DNA from: Oscillospiraceae bacterium | GTDB taxonomy: Bacteria > Bacillota > Clostridia > Oscillospirales > Oscillospiraceae | DNA: 32,184 bases | Direction of reading: 5' to 3' | Assembly: GCA_017380435.1 (NCBI GenBank) | Contig: JAFODZ010000028.1 | Span: forward strand, 1-32,184 | Part shown: positions 4,944 through 17,582 of the stretch, piece after piece | Position numbering within the stretch: position 1 is the first letter of the stretch | How the letters are laid out: every line of letters starts with the position of its first letter | Translations under genes and position numbers: made by a program | The notes under the pieces: model-generated | What the model was told of the DNA's origin: nothing | The model's input: only the letters and a program-made list of their open reading frames with translations | Database searches by the model: none

Positions 4944-6089
4944 TTATACAGCCACCAAGGACTTCAGCTTTTCAGCCAGATCCAGCTGCTCCCAGGGCAG
5001 CTCATCCACACCGAAGTGACCTTCCATAGCAGTCTTGCCGTAGATGGGACGGCGCAGCTCCAGCTTGCGGATAATGCCGCCGGGGGTCAGGTCGCAGGTC
5101 TTGCGCAGCATAGCGGTCATCTCCTCATCGGAGATCTTGCCGGTGCCGTAGCTATCCACCCGGACAGACACCGGCTCTGCCACGCCAATGGCGTAGGCAA
5201 GCTGCACCTGCACCTGGGTTGCCAAACCGGCAGCTACCAGATTCTTTGCCATATAACGGGCCATATACGCACCGCTTCTATCCACCTTGGTGGGGTCCTT
5301 ACCGGAGAATGCACCGCCGCCGTGGGAGAAATAGCCGCCGTAGGTATCGACGATAATCTTACGGCCTGTCAGACCGGTGTCGCCATTGGGACCGCCGATG
5401 ACAAAGTTGCCGGTGGGATTAATATGGATATTCTTCACATCCTCGATGGAGAAGCCGTATTTTGCCAGCACAGGGGCAATCACGCCCTCCCGGATGTAGC
5501 GACGCAGCTCGGACATTTCAAAATCCGCGCTGTGCATAACCGAAACCACGACGGTGTCAATACCGATCACATTGCCATCTTCATCAAACTCCACAGAAAC
5601 CTGAGTCTTGCCGTCGGGACGGAGCAGATCATTGCTTTGAACGCACTGGGTCAGCCGGTTGGACAGCGCACGGGACAGCGCTGCAGGCAGGGGCATCAGT
5701 TCGGGAGTATGGGTGCAGGCTCCGCCGAACATCATGCCCTGGTCACCGGCGCCGCCTACTTCGTCGTTCGTACCCAGTGCGATATCTGCGGACTGGGTAT
5801 GGATCTTGCACAGAATCTCCACGGACTCGGCATCAAAGCCGTCGCCGGGGTGGGTGTAGCCGATTTTGGCAATGACCTCACGGGCCACAGCGGCGTAATC
5901 CACCTGTGCCTTAGTTGTGATCTCACCGCAGATCAAGCAAAAATTAGTGGTGACCATGGTCTCACAGGCCACGCGGGAGCCGGGATCCTGGGCCAGGCAA
6001 GCATCCAGAATTGCATCGGAAATGCAGTCTGCCACCTTGTCGGGGTGACCGCAGGTTACACATTCAGAAGTAAACAATCTTTTTTCCAT
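4944..6089 (-). CDS. metK: S-adenosylmethionine synthetase
   Basis: 381 residues. It condenses methionine and ATP to S-adenosylmethionine, the methyl donor used by, among others, the RNA methyltransferase RlmB further along. The ATP-binding GHPDK (14-18), the signature hexapeptide GAGDQG (113-118) and the P-loop-like GGGAFSGKD (257-265) are intact. The ATG at 6089 follows two purine-rich AGGAAAAGG blocks; an in-frame start 18 codons upstream would reach back toward the riboswitch terminator and is not supported. Expression is controlled by the SAM-I riboswitch directly upstream, giving feedback by the enzyme's own product. Confidence 0.97.
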   Translation of the reverse strand: MEKRLFTSECVTCGHPDKVADCISDAILDACLAQDPGSRVACETMVTTNFCLICGEITTKAQVDYAAVAREVIAKIGYTHPGDGFDAESVEILCKIHTQSADIALGTNDEVGGAGDQGMMFGGACTHTPELMPLPAALSRALSNRLTQCVQSNDLLRPDGKTQVSVEFDEDGNVIGIDTVVVSVMHSADFEMSELRRYIREGVIAPVLAKYGFSIEDVKNIHINPTGNFVIGGPNGDTGLTGRKIIVDTYGGYFSHGGGAFSGKDPTKVDRSGAYMARYMAKNLVAAGLATQVQVQLAYAIGVAEPVSVRVDSYGTGKISDEEMTAMLRKTCDLTPGGIIRKLELRRPIYGKTAMEGHFGVDELPWEQLDLAEKLKSLVAV

Positions 6090-6141
6090 TTTTCCTTTTC
6101 CTTTCTTCGGATCGTCAATTTTCTTCAAAAGTCCACCAAAC

Positions 6142-6273
6142 AAAAAAACCGCACATCGGATTCGATGTGCGTGTATATCGAATCCTCATCTATCGTTGCC
6201 GCCGGATTTGGCACCTTGAAAAAATCAGGTTGCCGGGTTTCATCGGGCCGTTCCCTCCACCACTCTTGATAAG
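6142..6273 (-). ncRNA. SAM-I (S-box) riboswitch with terminator switch
   Basis: On the minus strand the aptamer begins CTTATCAAGAG (6273-6263). It continues with GGTGGAGGGA, then GATGAAACCCGGCAACC, AAGGTGCCAA and the P1 closing strand GATGAG (6190-6185), the standard S-box core. Downstream, a 9-bp stem (6150-6158 with 6163-6171) followed by seven T (6148-6142) is an intrinsic terminator. GGATTCGAT (6185-6177) can pair with ATCGAATCC inside the terminator stem (6166-6158), which gives a clear antiterminator. With SAM bound, P1 is held and metK transcription stops; without SAM the antiterminator forms. The gene-free stretch 6090-6404 is fully explained by this switch, the metK promoter and the leader of the next gene. 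Confidence 0.96.
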
Positions 6274-6294
6274 GCTTATATGCAGTTCGGTTAT

Positions 6295-7355: not shown

Positions 7356-9107
7356 TTACATTTTTTCCGGGGCAGTGAAACCGAGGATATCGATACACTT
7401 TTCCAGAACATTTTTGGCAAGGGCAATCAGAGAGATATAACCCTTTTGCAGCTCCTTGTCCTCCTCGGTGAGGATCCGGGTTTCGTGGTAGAACTTATTC
7501 ACCGCGCCAGCCAGCTCATAGATATAGGCGCAGATCAGGTTGGGACTCAAGGTGCGCAGCGCACTCTCCAGCGCAGGACCAAGCTTGGTGATACACAGCA
7601 TCAGCTCCTGGGCATAGGGATTGGCAGGCAAAGTGATCGGCAGTTCCTCCCAGGCACCATAACGAGCCAGAATAGACTTGATACGCACGATGGTATAGAG
7701 GATGTAAGGGCCGGTATTGCCCTCAAATGCAGCGAAGCGCTCCAAATCAAAGTTGTAGTCCTTAGTCGGCTGGTTGCTCAGATCGCCGTATTTCAGCGCT
7801 GCCAATGCGATTTTTGCTGTGGTATCCTCTACCTCTTCCGCGGCGACGATTTTGTTCTCCACAACCTTGGAACGGACAAAATCGGTCATATCGCTCAGCA
7901 ACTGTTCCAACCGCAGAACACCGCCGTCACGGGTCTTGAAGGGTTTTCCGTCAGCACCGTTCATCGTGCCGTGACCCACATGCTCGAGAACCGTTTCTTC
8001 CTTTACGATGCCGCCTTTTTTCGCCGCACGGAACACCTGCTCAAAATGCAGATTCTGCCGCTTGTCGGTAACATAGAGCATCTTATCGGGGTTATGGTCC
8101 TGCATCCGCTGTACCATAGTAGCCAGGTCGGTGGTCGCATAAATGGCTGCGCCGTCGGACTTAAGCAGAATACAGGGCGGAATCTCCTTCTTATCCCCCT
8201 CCTCTGCCACCGGGAACACCAGGGCGCCCTCGCTATAAACAGCGTGACCCTTGGCTTTCAGGTCTTCGATCATAGCAGGAATGTAGGGATCGGCATCGCT
8301 CTCGCCCAGCCAGGCTTCAAAATGCACATCCAGGGCATCGTAGATCCGATGCAGGTCGGCCAAAGAAATCCGCATAATATGATTCCAGATAGCTCGGTAG
8401 CCGGCTCTTCCCTGTTGCAGCTCGTAGGTTGCGATATGGGCCTTTTCTGCAAACTCTGCATCGTCCTTCTTTTTAGCAGAGGCGGTGGGGTAGATCTCCT
8501 CCAGCTCAGAAAGGGTAAAGGGTGCTTCTGCGGGGTATTCGCCGGTGTAATCCGGGTCGAAATAGCAAAGATCCGGCTGGCGCACCTGCAATTCGGCAAT
8601 AATCAGACCCATTTGCAGACCCCAGTCGCCCAGGTGAATATCACCGATGGTTTCATAACCCATAAAGCTATGCAGCCGCTTAAGGGATTCACCGATAATG
8701 GCAGGGCGGAGGTGACCGATGTGCAAGGGCTTGGCCACATTGGCTCCGCCGTAGTCAACAATAGCCATTTTGCCGCTGCCGACTTTTTCCACGCCGAAGT
8801 CCGGGGCGGTACGCATACCCTCCAAATAATCCCGCAGGAAGCTGTCGGACAGATTCAGATTGATAAATCCGGGCATAACTGCCTGGCACATAGAAAAGTC
8901 TTCGCCCTGCAGTTTTTCTGCCACGGCATTGGCAATCTGAATGGGGGCGCACTTATAGACCTTCGCTGCGGACAGAGCACCGTTGCACTGGTACTGGCAC
9001 AGGTCAGGCCGGTTGGATACAGTCACTCTGCCGTAAGCGGCATCATAGCCGGCATCTGCAAACGCCTGCTCCATTTTCTTTGAAATAATATCCAATATCT
9101 TTTCCAT
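7356..9107 (-). CDS. argS: Arginyl-tRNA synthetase
   Basis: 583 residues. A class Ia synthetase that charges tRNA-Arg. The N-terminal additional domain spans about 1-110. The HIGH signature is exact at 129-132 (PLHIGHLRPA). KMSK is replaced by a degenerate loop near FKTRDGGVLRL, as is usual in many ArgRS. The anticodon-binding DALR domain follows the SNQPTKDYNFD and NTGPYILY segments and runs to the end. The ATG at 9107 follows AAAGGAGA. No vegetative promoter is evident in the 50 bases between the start and the repeat at 9158-9196, so argS may rely on transcription from the ABC-F gene upstream through the inserted GIY-YIG unit, or on a poor promoter of its own. Confidence 0.97.
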   Translation of the reverse strand: MEKILDIISKKMEQAFADAGYDAAYGRVTVSNRPDLCQYQCNGALSAAKVYKCAPIQIANAVAEKLQGEDFSMCQAVMPGFINLNLSDSFLRDYLEGMRTAPDFGVEKVGSGKMAIVDYGGANVAKPLHIGHLRPAIIGESLKRLHSFMGYETIGDIHLGDWGLQMGLIIAELQVRQPDLCYFDPDYTGEYPAEAPFTLSELEEIYPTASAKKKDDAEFAEKAHIATYELQQGRAGYRAIWNHIMRISLADLHRIYDALDVHFEAWLGESDADPYIPAMIEDLKAKGHAVYSEGALVFPVAEEGDKKEIPPCILLKSDGAAIYATTDLATMVQRMQDHNPDKMLYVTDKRQNLHFEQVFRAAKKGGIVKEETVLEHVGHGTMNGADGKPFKTRDGGVLRLEQLLSDMTDFVRSKVVENKIVAAEEVEDTTAKIALAALKYGDLSNQPTKDYNFDLERFAAFEGNTGPYILYTIVRIKSILARYGAWEELPITLPANPYAQELMLCITKLGPALESALRTLSPNLICAYIYELAGAVNKFYHETRILTEEDKELQKGYISLIALAKNVLEKCIDILGFTAPEKM

Positions 9108-9157: not shown

Positions 9158-9196
9158 GTGTCATTCTGAGCGAGCGTCAGCGAGTCGAAGAATCTT
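9158..9196 (+). repeat. Left inverted repeat, GTCATTCTGAG family
   Basis: A 39-base sequence that starts GTGTCATTCTGAGCGAGCG and ends GTCGAAGAATCTT. It matches the reverse complement of 9523-9560 with about five differences. It also matches 17490-17525 with three substitutions over 36 bases. It lies between the GIY-YIG stop and the argS start. Confidence 0.85.
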
Positions 9197-9210
9197 CTTG
9201 CCAACAAGTT

Positions 9211-9495
9211 TCAAAAATCCCAGTCAGCAGAAAGATCCTTCCATTGCGGGTTATTTATGCTAATCAATGCATTTTTCTTCGCACGATTCCAACCTTTTAA
9301 CTGTTTTTCTCTTTCCAACGCAACACGAACATCCCCGGTGGCTTCAAAATAAACCAGTTTATTGGTTTGATACTTTTCTGCAAAACCTTCAACCAGGTGA
9401 TTTCGATGTTCATAAAGTCTGCGCAAAAGGTTGTTCGTCACCCCGATATAAAGCACACTGTCACACCAGTTTGAGAGAATATAAACATAATACAT
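9211..9495 (-). CDS. Single-domain GIY-YIG nuclease
   Basis: 94 residues, the whole length being one GIY-YIG domain of the UvrC/YhbQ-like type. Motif positions: VYI (4-6) standing for GIY, YIG (16-18), the conserved Arg in LLRRLYEH (23-30), and the acidic metal-ligand region LEREKQLKGWNR (60-71). All core positions are present, so DNA-nicking activity is plausible. No DNA-binding fusion or signal peptide is seen. The ATG at 9495 is 7 bases from AGGAG (9503-9507); an ATG two codons upstream is too close. Inverted repeats on both sides suggest it acts on, or mobilises, those repeats. A role in DNA repair cannot be excluded, since single-domain homologues are common and poorly characterised. Confidence 0.9.
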   Translation of the reverse strand: MYYVYILSNWCDSVLYIGVTNNLLRRLYEHRNHLVEGFAEKYQTNKLVYFEATGDVRVALEREKQLKGWNRAKKNALISINNPQWKDLSADWDF

Positions 9496-9522
9496 ATACA
9501 TTCTCCTTTTAACTATAGTGCC

Positions 9523-9560
9523 AAGATCCTTCGACGCGCTGCGCTTGCTCAGGATGACAC
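9523..9560 (-). repeat. Right inverted repeat, GTCATTCTGAG family
   Basis: A 38-base sequence, reading AAGATCCTTCGACGCGC and ending CTCAGGATGACAC on the plus strand. It differs from the right half of the palindrome at 17490-17582 only by a GA/AG swap. The ABC-F stop is 12 bases outside it. Confidence 0.85.
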
Positions 9561-9572
9561 GGTGGGTGGTTT

Positions 9573-11171
9573 TTACTGTTTGTTACGCAGCCATTCCAGG
9601 TAGTCGTCGTAGGTGCCGTAGCGGTCAACAATGGTGCCGTCCGGCTGGAAGGCGATGACCCGGTTACAGACAGAGGTCAGCATTTCGTGGTCGTGGCTGG
9701 CCAGCAGCACAACGCCGGGGAATGCTTCCAGGCCCTTATTCACAGCCTGGATAGATTCCATATCCAGGTGGTTGGTGGGCTGGTCAAGAAGCACCACATT
9801 GGCACCGGAGAGCATCATCTTCGACAGCATACACCGGACCTTTTCACCGCCGGAGAGAACATTGACAGGCTTAAACACATCGTCATTAGAGAACAGCATT
9901 CTGCCCAGGAATCCACGCAGGTACACATCGTCTTTTTTCACAGAGTACTGCCGCAGCCAATCTACCAGCTCCATATCGTTGCCCTCAAAGTAGGCAGTAT
10001 TGTCCTTAGGCAGGTAGCTGCGCACGGTGGAGATGCCCCACTTTACAGAGCCTTCATCCGGCTCCAATTCGCCCATGAGGATCTGGAACAGCGCTGTCTG
10101 CGCCAGCTCATTTTCGCCCACAAAGGCGATCTTATCATTCTTGCCAACGCTGAAATACACATTATCCAGCAGTTTTTCGCCGTCAACGGTAACGGAAACA
10201 TCCTTGACAGTCAGAATGTCCTTGCCCAGTTCCCGCTCCGGCTGGAAGCCAACGAAGGGATAACGGCGGGTGGAGCAGGGCATTTCTTCCACAGTCAGCT
10301 TGTCCAGCAGCTTTCTGCGGGCAGTTGCCTGCTTTGCCTTTGACTTATTGGCAGAGAAGCGCTGAATGAACAACTGCAACTCCTCGATCTTCTCCTGGTT
10401 GCGCTTGTTCTTATTGCGGATCATTGCCTGCACCAACTGGGAGGATTCATACCAGAAGTCGTAGTTACCTACATACATCTTGATCTTGCCGTAGTCGATA
10501 TCCACGGTGTGGGTGCAGACGGTATTGAGGAAGTGGCGGTCGTGGGATACGGCGATGACCATGCCGGGGAAATCCAGCAAAAAGTCTTCCAGCCAATTGA
10601 TCGATTCAATATCCAGGTTGTTGGTAGGTTCGTCCAGCATAACGATATCGGGATTGCCAAACAGCGCTTGGGCCAGCAGCACCTTCACCTTCAGACGGGG
10701 GTCGGTATCGGCCATCATATCGTAGTGCATATCGGTGGGAACGCCCAGGCCTTGCAGCATACGGGATGCGTCAGACTCTGCTTCCCAACCGCCCATTTCC
10801 GCAAATTCTGCTTCCAGCTCGGAAGCACGGATGCCGTCTTCGTCGGTAAAATCCGGCTTTTCATAAATGGCATCCTTTTCCTTCATAATGTCGTAAAGGC
10901 GCTGGTTGCCTATAATGACAGTATCCATAATAGAGAAGTTGTCGTAGGCATTCTGGTTCTGCTTCAAAACAGAAACACGAAGCTCTTCGGGAATATGGAT
11001 ATAGCCGGTGGTAGAGTCTAGCTCGCCGTACAAAAGGCGAAGGAAAGTGGATTTACCCGCACCGTTTGCACCGATGATGCCGTAGCAGTTGCCGGGCAAA
11101 AATTGCAGATCCACATGCTGGAACAGCCATTGACCACCGAACTGCATACCTAAATTGCTTACTGTAATCAT
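9573..11171 (-). CDS. ABC-F family ATPase, YbiT-like, with degenerate second ATP site
   Basis: 532 residues, two ABC domains and no membrane segment, so a soluble ABC-F protein of the kind that acts on ribosomes (translation factor or antibiotic protection). The order and linker (LQLFIQRFSANKSKAKQATAR) resemble E. coli YbiT. Domain 1 has Walker A GANGAGKST (34-42) and Walker B VMLDEPTNNLD (177-187), but the signature LSGG is replaced by DPRLKVKV. Domain 2 keeps LSGGE (439-443), but its Walker A is lost (GENELAQTA at 352-360) and the catalytic Glu is Gln (LLDQPTNHLD, Q464). Only one composite ATP site is therefore likely to hydrolyse. The ATG at 11171 follows GAGGT. Its promoter is at 11219-11246, divergent from htpG. 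Confidence 0.92.
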   Translation of the reverse strand: MITVSNLGMQFGGQWLFQHVDLQFLPGNCYGIIGANGAGKSTFLRLLYGELDSTTGYIHIPEELRVSVLKQNQNAYDNFSIMDTVIIGNQRLYDIMKEKDAIYEKPDFTDEDGIRASELEAEFAEMGGWEAESDASRMLQGLGVPTDMHYDMMADTDPRLKVKVLLAQALFGNPDIVMLDEPTNNLDIESINWLEDFLLDFPGMVIAVSHDRHFLNTVCTHTVDIDYGKIKMYVGNYDFWYESSQLVQAMIRNKNKRNQEKIEELQLFIQRFSANKSKAKQATARRKLLDKLTVEEMPCSTRRYPFVGFQPERELGKDILTVKDVSVTVDGEKLLDNVYFSVGKNDKIAFVGENELAQTALFQILMGELEPDEGSVKWGISTVRSYLPKDNTAYFEGNDMELVDWLRQYSVKKDDVYLRGFLGRMLFSNDDVFKPVNVLSGGEKVRCMLSKMMLSGANVVLLDQPTNHLDMESIQAVNKGLEAFPGVVLLASHDHEMLTSVCNRVIAFQPDGTIVDRYGTYDDYLEWLRNKQ

Positions 11172-17429: not shown

Positions 17430-17463
17430 GATTGCCACGGCGCTATGGCGGCTCGCAATGACA
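17430..17463 (-). repeat. GTCATTGCGAG-family repeat, right copy
   Basis: Minus strand TGTCATTGCGAGCCGCC followed by GCCGTGGCAATC. Together with 16546-16580 it gives TGTCA outermost at both ends of a 918-base interval. Confidence 0.7.
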
Positions 17464-17489
17464 CATTCCTTGACAGCTTTCAAGGTTTT

Positions 17490-17582
17490 GTCATTCTGAG
17501 TGAGCGTTAGCGAATCGAAGAATCTACGCAGTTTCGATGGTACCAAGATCCTTCAGCGCGCTGCGCTTGCTCAGGATGACAC
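17490..17582. repeat. Solo palindrome of the GTCATTCTGAG family (nuclease-less copy)
   Basis: The left half (17490-17525) and right half (17543-17582) are the same sequences that bound the GIY-YIG gene at 9158-9560, with three and two differences. Here they are head-to-head with only 17 bases between. It ends 13 bases from the stop of the alpha-glucan hydrolase and may act as that gene's terminator structure. Confidence 0.85.

Follow-up and report, generated by a model that had tools for sequence, protein, structure and literature searches.

A single-domain GIY-YIG endonuclease gene enclosed by REP-like palindromes, and its probable role as the cognate nuclease of the repeat family

The DNA analysed here (the window, 32,184 nucleotides in full) belongs to an Oscillospiraceae genome assembly of 1.28 Mb that is 59% complete. 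Between argS and an ABC-F ATPase gene (abcF) lies a small GIY-YIG endonuclease gene enclosed by two inverted palindromic arms, and a second pair of such arms, without a gene, lies some distance away. The features of the window that enter the description are as follows.

7356-9107, minus strand: argS (TIGR00456, E 4.4e-115), the downstream neighbour, given as context and outside the element
9158-9195, plus strand: T-type REP arm of 38 nt with a TGTC head pointing outward and an ATTCT..AGAAT stem base, on the downstream side of the gene
9211-9501, minus strand: single-domain GIY-YIG endonuclease gene of 96 residues (94 from the second ATG at 9495)
9524-9560, minus strand: C-type REP arm of 37 nt with a TGTC head pointing outward and an ATCCT..AGGAT stem base, on the upstream side of the gene
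9573-11171, minus strand: ABC-F ATPase gene, abcF (NF011646, E 8.1e-190), the upstream neighbour, likewise context and outside the element
17430-17465, minus strand: single REP arm belonging to the second stem class (TGTCATTGCGAG..GGCAATC), found beside type-2 GIY-YIG genes elsewhere in the genus
17488-17525, plus strand: T-type arm of a gene-free doublet
17546-17582, minus strand: C-type arm of the same gene-free doublet, differing from the C arm of the gene in 2 of 40 aligned columns

The two arms around the gene (9158-9195 and 9524-9560) are identical in 33 of 38 aligned columns, with four mismatches and one gap, in agreement with the inverted repeats that the initial annotation had placed at both ends. 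Its description of a lone gene fitted tightly between them is also borne out, with 15 nt from the stop codon to one arm and 28 nt from the start codon to the other (22 nt if the first ATG is taken). The gene occupies the intergenic space between the reading frames of abcF and argS, both of them whole; it neither lies in an intron nor splits a host gene, and the element stands directly before argS in an operon-like row. The NF011646 score of the ABC-F ATPase, 631.7 bits, is below the model cut-off of 762. An 81-residue reading frame on the plus strand, which overlaps the GIY-YIG gene in the mechanical list of ORFs, is taken as chance. Elsewhere in the window, a SAM riboswitch (6183-6275, minus strand; RF00162, 77.9 bits) precedes ORF 4944-6143, which resembles an S-adenosylmethionine synthetase.

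The encoded protein consists almost wholly of a GIY-YIG domain (PF01541, E 4.6e-16). This domain is the sole Pfam-A match up to E 0.001, and a Y1 (HuH) tyrosine transposase domain is absent from the Pfam-A matches at that threshold. Residues Y16, R26, H30 and E63 are invariant in 126 of 126 relatives and, as in GIY-YIG enzymes in general, are presumably catalytic. NCBIfam provides no name for the protein, and a search of solved structures gave 1zg2 as the best match, with E 0.058.

The arms belong to a repeat family. With one mismatch allowed, the window contains four occurrences of the 11-mer GTCATYCTGAG; 100 shuffles averaged 0.70, and all of them stayed below four. The assembly contains 28 forward and 28 reverse copies and no copy of a reversed control pattern. 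These 56 places resolve into 27 pairs and two lone copies, and all 27 pairs have their heads outward and combine one T-type arm with one C-type arm. Lengths were printed for 26 distinct pairs: 24 measure 70-118 bp, one 283 bp and the gene-bearing one 399 bp. As the assembly has one PF01541 match, only the pair in the window, among all of these, holds a GIY-YIG gene, which there replaces the short spacer between the arms. The pair without a gene that had been noted elsewhere in the window was located at 17488-17525 and 17546-17582. A DNA query for orthologues of this site (17490) matched nine genomes, the genome itself included; in the five good relatives among them the sequence past the neighbour gene is unrelated.

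A TGTC head is present in 54 of the 55 arms read in this genome. The head leads into ATTCT or ATCCT, and after an imperfect interior the arm closes with AGAAT or AGGAT and a brief tail. Arms built in this way match the REP plan, and a facing pair of them gives a REPIN-like doublet. Taken singly, arms did not surpass shuffled sequences in folding (z +1.07, +0.82, +1.05 and -0.22). The whole gene-free doublet (17488-17582) folds better than shuffles on both strands, with z of -2.76 and -2.62.

Two weak Y1_Tnp matches (E 1.7e-5 and 1.9e-5) occur in the same genome, as might be expected if another enzyme, such as a RAYT-type Y1 transposase, moved the repeats and the GIY-YIG gene were present by chance or as cargo. 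However, GTCATYCTGAG is absent from the 3.2-3.4 kb read around each Y1_Tnp locus (~3.3 kb), by which a Y1 transposase beside these repeats in this genome was rejected, and cargo would leave the match of protein type to stem type, described below, unexplained. We consider a passenger role of the gene very improbable. One Y1_Tnp locus (L152, on contig 15) has four copies of GTAGGGGCG and one of GTCATTGCGA, and the other (L153) has neither motif; the four GTAGGGGCG copies lie in and around the weak match and are perhaps a separate GTAG-type REP system.

Relatives have several kinds of small GIY-YIG gene, and the palindromes accompany one of them. Within the genus, loci of the clade of the window protein carry an outward palindrome within 200 nt on both sides in 41 of 47 cases and on at least one side in 44, the 47 excluding two broken frames (L200, L201), one locus at a contig end (L202), a duplicate reading of one gene, and incomplete matches in G076 and on contig 46 of G085. 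The initial annotation would have been refuted by repeats placed at random with respect to GIY-YIG genes, which is not the case for these genes. GIY-YIG genes outside the clade have a REP-like palindrome within ~300 nt at none of 23 loci, these being 23 of 28 (five were too short), with flank windows slightly unlike those of the genus loci. Such genes mostly carry the GKGAKYTRGRGP motif; in the genus, those with the motif score at most 49 bits against the model of the window clade, and they are presumably YhbQ-like. The GKGAKYTRGRGP-motif genes resemble the window clade in Pfam domain and size but lack the flanking REPs, and palindrome flanking as a general trait of small GIY-YIG genes was rejected on the 0 of 23 outside the clade.

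Across phyla the loci examined were the best 80 of 313 relatives in a named genome collection, 78 of which had enough flank; they come from Clostridia, Anaerolineae, Ignavibacteria, Nitrospirae, Calditrichaeota, Proteobacteria and others. The search fixed only GTCAT and required a complement, with no given stem prescribed. Outward palindromes were found on both sides at 43 of the 78 loci and on fewer than both at 35, four of which have none, so that 74 loci had at least one within 300 nt. Ten genes, as identical or near-identical pairs, are common to the 80 cross-phylum loci and the genus set, so that the two counts overlap. In the controls, both sides were flanked in 3 of 1434 mock genes placed elsewhere in the same loci and in 1 of 3900 shuffled flanks; 164 of the 1434 mock placements had at least one palindrome. 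Chance as the origin of the pairing between repeats and gene was rejected by these controls together with the 11-mer counts in window and assembly. Some loci show further repeats. At L143, a GIY-YIG relative without the usual palindrome has the same 45-nt direct repeat on either side of the gene (2949 and 3333), and at L075 and L154 the C-type arm with adjoining sequence is present in several tandem copies downstream of the GIY-YIG gene.

The stems of the flanking palindromes vary in a compensated manner. When only heads were considered ([TC]GTCAT pointing away from the gene, with no stem required, doubled genes removed by hand), the complement of the three bases that follow the head was found for the locus's own bases in 152 of 167 cases, and for those of another locus in 1178 of 21582 (5.5%). 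For the stems CCT, TGC, TCT, TTC, CCC and TCC, the partner is in each case mainly the stem's own complement; ACC, which is rare, has it in 0 of 2 cases.

The stem class also follows the protein type. Genus proteins fall into 18 with REKQL and YIGVT (type 1) and 29 with REKQI and YTG or YVG (type 2), types having been assigned from protein letters and tree position at a stage when most flanks had already been inspected. The REPs found beside REKQL proteins are ATYCY in 32 of 33 cases, and those beside REKQI proteins are ATTGC or ATCGC in 51 of 52. Four genomes (G044, G067, G016 and G057) hold both types. The paralogues of G044 and G067 are each flanked by their own stem class on both sides. The same holds for one REKQL and one REKQI gene of G016, and a second REKQL gene there (L183), on the type-2 side of the tree, carries ATTCC on one flank and ATTGC on the opposite one. 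The type-1 gene of G057 has ATCCT on one side; its type-2 gene was left unscored because its stem partners are separated by over 80 nt. Mapped onto a tree of 126 proteins, the three stem classes can be explained by 5 changes, compared with 27-35 when shuffled 300 times; the tree is built from 93 columns and has 60 of its 115 inner forks open, and the shuffling ignores host relatedness. The genomes with two types are free of the problem of host relatedness, but they are few. A clade on the ATTGC side of the tree (L167, L168, L171 and L115) combines ATYCT repeats with the REKQL motif; it is likely to represent an independent switch of stem specificity and is a place to look for specificity residues.

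These observations bear on the explanation that the repeats are only terminators or mRNA stabilisers of host genes, which became common by other means and meet the nuclease in the same intergenic spaces. The position of the element just before argS in an operon-like row and the long hairpins formed by whole doublets would suit such a function. Against it, the other small GIY-YIG genes of the genus lack the repeats (0 of 23), and a match of stem to protein type is not expected; we regard a purely regulatory origin as extremely unlikely.

The number of repeats in a genome was compared with its gene type in 101 genomes of the genus. The median number of GTCATYCTGAG (YCT) copies is 42.5 in genomes with type 1 only (n=16), 3 in those with type 2 only (n=23) and 3 in those with neither (n=58). 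The corresponding medians for GTCATTGCGA (TGC) are 18.5, 53 and 4.5. Of the 20 genomes with type 1, 14 have at least 20 YCT copies, as do 11 of the 81 without it (Fisher 1.6e-6); for TGC, the same level is reached by 25 of the 27 genomes with type 2 and by 22 of the 74 without it (9e-9). Both tests treat genomes as independent, and the type-1 count includes three partial or split genes (G013, G017, G076) and the type-2 count one gene with an in-frame stop (G034).

Repeat-rich genomes in which no matching gene was found also occur. They include the near-complete G019 (100% complete; 33 YCT and 32 TGC), G002 (98%; 248 TGC) and G084 (98%; 151 TGC), the less complete G005 (592 TGC), G029 (278) and G032 (645 TGC, type 1 only), and G052 and others. 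G034 has 86 YCT copies and only a broken type-2 gene, and for the host of the window 43 TGC copies were counted, with no type-2 gene in its 59%-complete assembly. Either repeats may persist after the gene has been lost, or their maintenance may not depend on it. Among ATTGC arms with at most two mismatches, perfect ones number 26 of 47 (G035) and 24 of 48 (G031) with the gene present, and 9 of 35 (G002) and 10 of 15 (G084) with the gene absent, figures that do not separate the groups and that cover parts of four genomes, in which many arms with at least three mismatches, possibly due to chance, were also caught.

The repeat-rich genomes matter for the explanation that the nuclease cuts the repeats without spreading them, as a host-serving enzyme resembling the neisserial nuclease Ssn that acts on repeat-carrying single strands, for example in DNA uptake or recombination, the repeats having arisen or spread otherwise. 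Several near-complete genomes with many repeats and no gene are in line with it, as are the maintenance of the genes at one or two copies per type and the role in natural transformation that neisserial Ssn reportedly exerts through its repeat. It does not by itself account for repeat numbers that track the matching gene type in two classes, nor is the position of the gene between two arms of its own repeat required by a mere target relation. We judge this explanation rather unlikely, while giving it real weight.

The history of the gene was followed at the abcF-argS site. Among 83 genomes with an argS match, 30 loci were read, and abcF and argS adjoin in all of them. The gap holds a gene-bearing element in five (G000, G016, G157, G067 and G071), a doublet of the alternative stem class without a gene in three (G044, G052 and G028, one arm of G028 being damaged), a fused remnant in G072, right-arm remnants in two (G017 and G076), and other sequence in six. 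The remaining 13 gaps measure 0-35 nt and contain no repeat, including those of the close relatives G068, G158 and G029, whose ArgS proteins show 91%, 88% and 87% identity. The initial annotation had suggested looking for empty sites in this interval, and its refuting case, in which all relatives keep the nuclease between abcF and argS without the repeats, does not hold for the 30 gaps. Five more genomes carry the gene at this site, as judged from a downstream argS start and neighbour clusters (G032, G090, G063, G153 and G057). Type-1 genes elsewhere lie at a common site in G009, G077 and G044 and at other sites in G040, G027, G085 and G150. Among the 29 type-2 genes, neighbour reading, with three fragments checked, places 15 between recF and gyrB or ahead of gyrA; type-2 genes with ATTGC repeats in this row of replication genes were seen at L175, L176, L179, L185, L187, L195-L199, L177, L178, L184, L188 and L191.

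Because the abcF-argS gaps vary and type-1 genes occur at other sites, gain and loss of the gene must have happened. No new insertion or target duplication was observed, and at abcF-argS the gaps of the relatives are too divergent to define a target duplication. Gene-free copies are many, and gene-bearing copies number only one or two per type and genome. The gene is gained and lost, but its gene-bearing copies do not multiply, and the data do not support the boxed unit as a self-copying element of the kind that the initial annotation had entertained. The REP/RAYT-like pairing of palindromes with a GIY-YIG enzyme, proposed in the same place, is well supported as an association, with clade-specific flanking, type match and repeat load in its favour.

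A gene that homed into existing doublets, with the repeats as insertion sites outside the moving unit, would also be found between two arms. It would replace the spacer, as the gene does, and would have had doublets to enter at this very site, given the gene-free doublets between abcF and argS in G044, G052 and G028, although these are of the other stem class. Against this, only one or two genes per type are present for tens to hundreds of possible doublets in a genome, and the 13 gaps of 0-35 nt contain no repeat. Homing into doublets therefore appears improbable.

The clade-specific, stem-matched association of the protein with the repeats, the repeat family itself, the compensatory stems and the gene-linked repeat load are direct observations. 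Together with the neisserial case described below, the clade-specific flanking, the match of type and stem, the repeat load and the compensation indicate that the protein is most likely the cognate nuclease of a REP-like family. The preferred explanation, which we consider quite probable, is that the unit is a gene-bearing copy of a REP/REPIN-like family and that its protein is the cognate GIY-YIG endonuclease of that family, probably spreading the doublets. The nuclease would most likely recognise folded palindromes of single-stranded DNA by their TGTC head and base and would cut there, as homology to the neisserial protein, presumably Ssn, suggests. By analogy with REP/RAYT systems, cutting would keep, and probably spread, the T/C doublets, and the gene-free pairs would be non-autonomous copies of the T/C doublet. 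With one or two copies per type and genome and with gain and loss at abcF-argS, the gene looks RAYT-like. The matched protein and stem types in one genus make the upkeep and spread of repeats directly testable with a small protein and short oligonucleotides, and natural pairs of enzyme and target could allow nuclease specificity to be read.

A tblastn search of plasmid records yielded 34 relatives, including those of Neisseria gonorrhoeae, Azospirillum lipoferum 4B and Sinorhizobium meliloti. The Neisseria gonorrhoeae homologue, on a chromosome-sized record, shows 48.9% identity over residues 6-93 (E 2e-19) and is flanked on both sides by CGTC palindromes (CGTCATTCCC..GGGAATC), a repeat that is presumably dRS3. 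Among 12 named relatives that were read, nine show a palindrome headed CGTC or TGTC within ~300 nt, whatever its orientation, and six of these show it outward on both sides; no such palindrome lies within ~300 nt of the gene in Novosphingobium, Sphingobium and Rhizobium tumorigenes. On a Planktothrix agardhii plasmid (L247), the GIY-YIG homologue lies between a type IIL restriction-modification gene and the DISARM gene drmA.

The homologue of Neisseria gonorrhoeae is presumably the protein called Ssn. Chenal et al. (2025, Nat Commun) reportedly described the Ssn family as GIY-YIG enzymes that cut single strands site-specifically, the target being the neisserial NTS repeat, with matching sequences for other members. 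The neisserial enzyme reportedly modulates natural transformation through its repeat. The window protein resembles Ssn as a small single-domain GIY-YIG protein homologous to the neisserial enzyme, and in both systems a cognate repeated palindrome is present in the same genome. The system of the window differs from the Ssn/NTS pair in its ATYCT stem, its longer imperfect arms, its strict T/C doublets and its host phylum.

Among the matches listed in a literature search, no paper was recognised as joining GIY-YIG nucleases with REPs, and the words 'giy', 'nuclease' and 'transposase' are absent from the main text of RepRanger 2025 (PMC12306157). CGTC-tagged REPs, according to the article that describes them, have a CGTC or TGTC head and a stem starting with AT, with stems of 8-9 bp, loops of 4-5 nt and mostly CCA tails; they form mostly head-to-head dimers, often heterodimers, the neisserial CGTC-1 elements are equated with dRS3, and no dedicated enzyme was found for these repeats (Di Nocera et al. 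2013, PMC3733652). The repeats of the window agree with this description in the TGTC head, the stem starting with AT and its complement, and the arrangement as head-to-head heterodimers. They differ from it in a 5-bp AT-NNN base, an imperfect interior and CTT- or CTA-like tails, and because the stem of 8-9 bp with a loop of 4-5 nt is absent they were not placed in families CGTC-1 to 4. CGTC-headed REPs apparently lacked a dedicated enzyme as of 2013, and repeats with this kind of head are now tied to one GIY-YIG clade across many phyla. A broader proposal, which we put forward tentatively and consider slightly less likely than not, is that GIY-YIG nucleases may be the missing dedicated enzymes of CGTC- and TGTC-headed REPs throughout bacteria. 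Alongside the systems that depend on HuH transposases there would then be another, independent REP/REPIN replicator. Its protein, of ~94 residues, would both recognise palindromes and propagate them, and its stem specificity could switch along the protein tree.

In the REPIN/RAYT system, inverted REP doublets form hairpins, the enzyme gene is flanked by its own REPs, and an HuH enzyme is encoded by single-copy genes with matched classes of enzyme and REP (Bertels and Rainey 2011, PMC3116915; for TnpA-REP, PMC8266576). Compared with it, the system of the window differs in having a GIY-YIG enzyme instead of an HuH/Y1 transposase and a TGTC head instead of GTAG. It resembles REPINs in that two REPs are inverted, in 27 of 27 pairs, and that the doublet folds into a hairpin, and its gene resembles RAYTs as a low-copy enzyme gene that is flanked by its own REPs and whose enzyme class is matched to the REP class.
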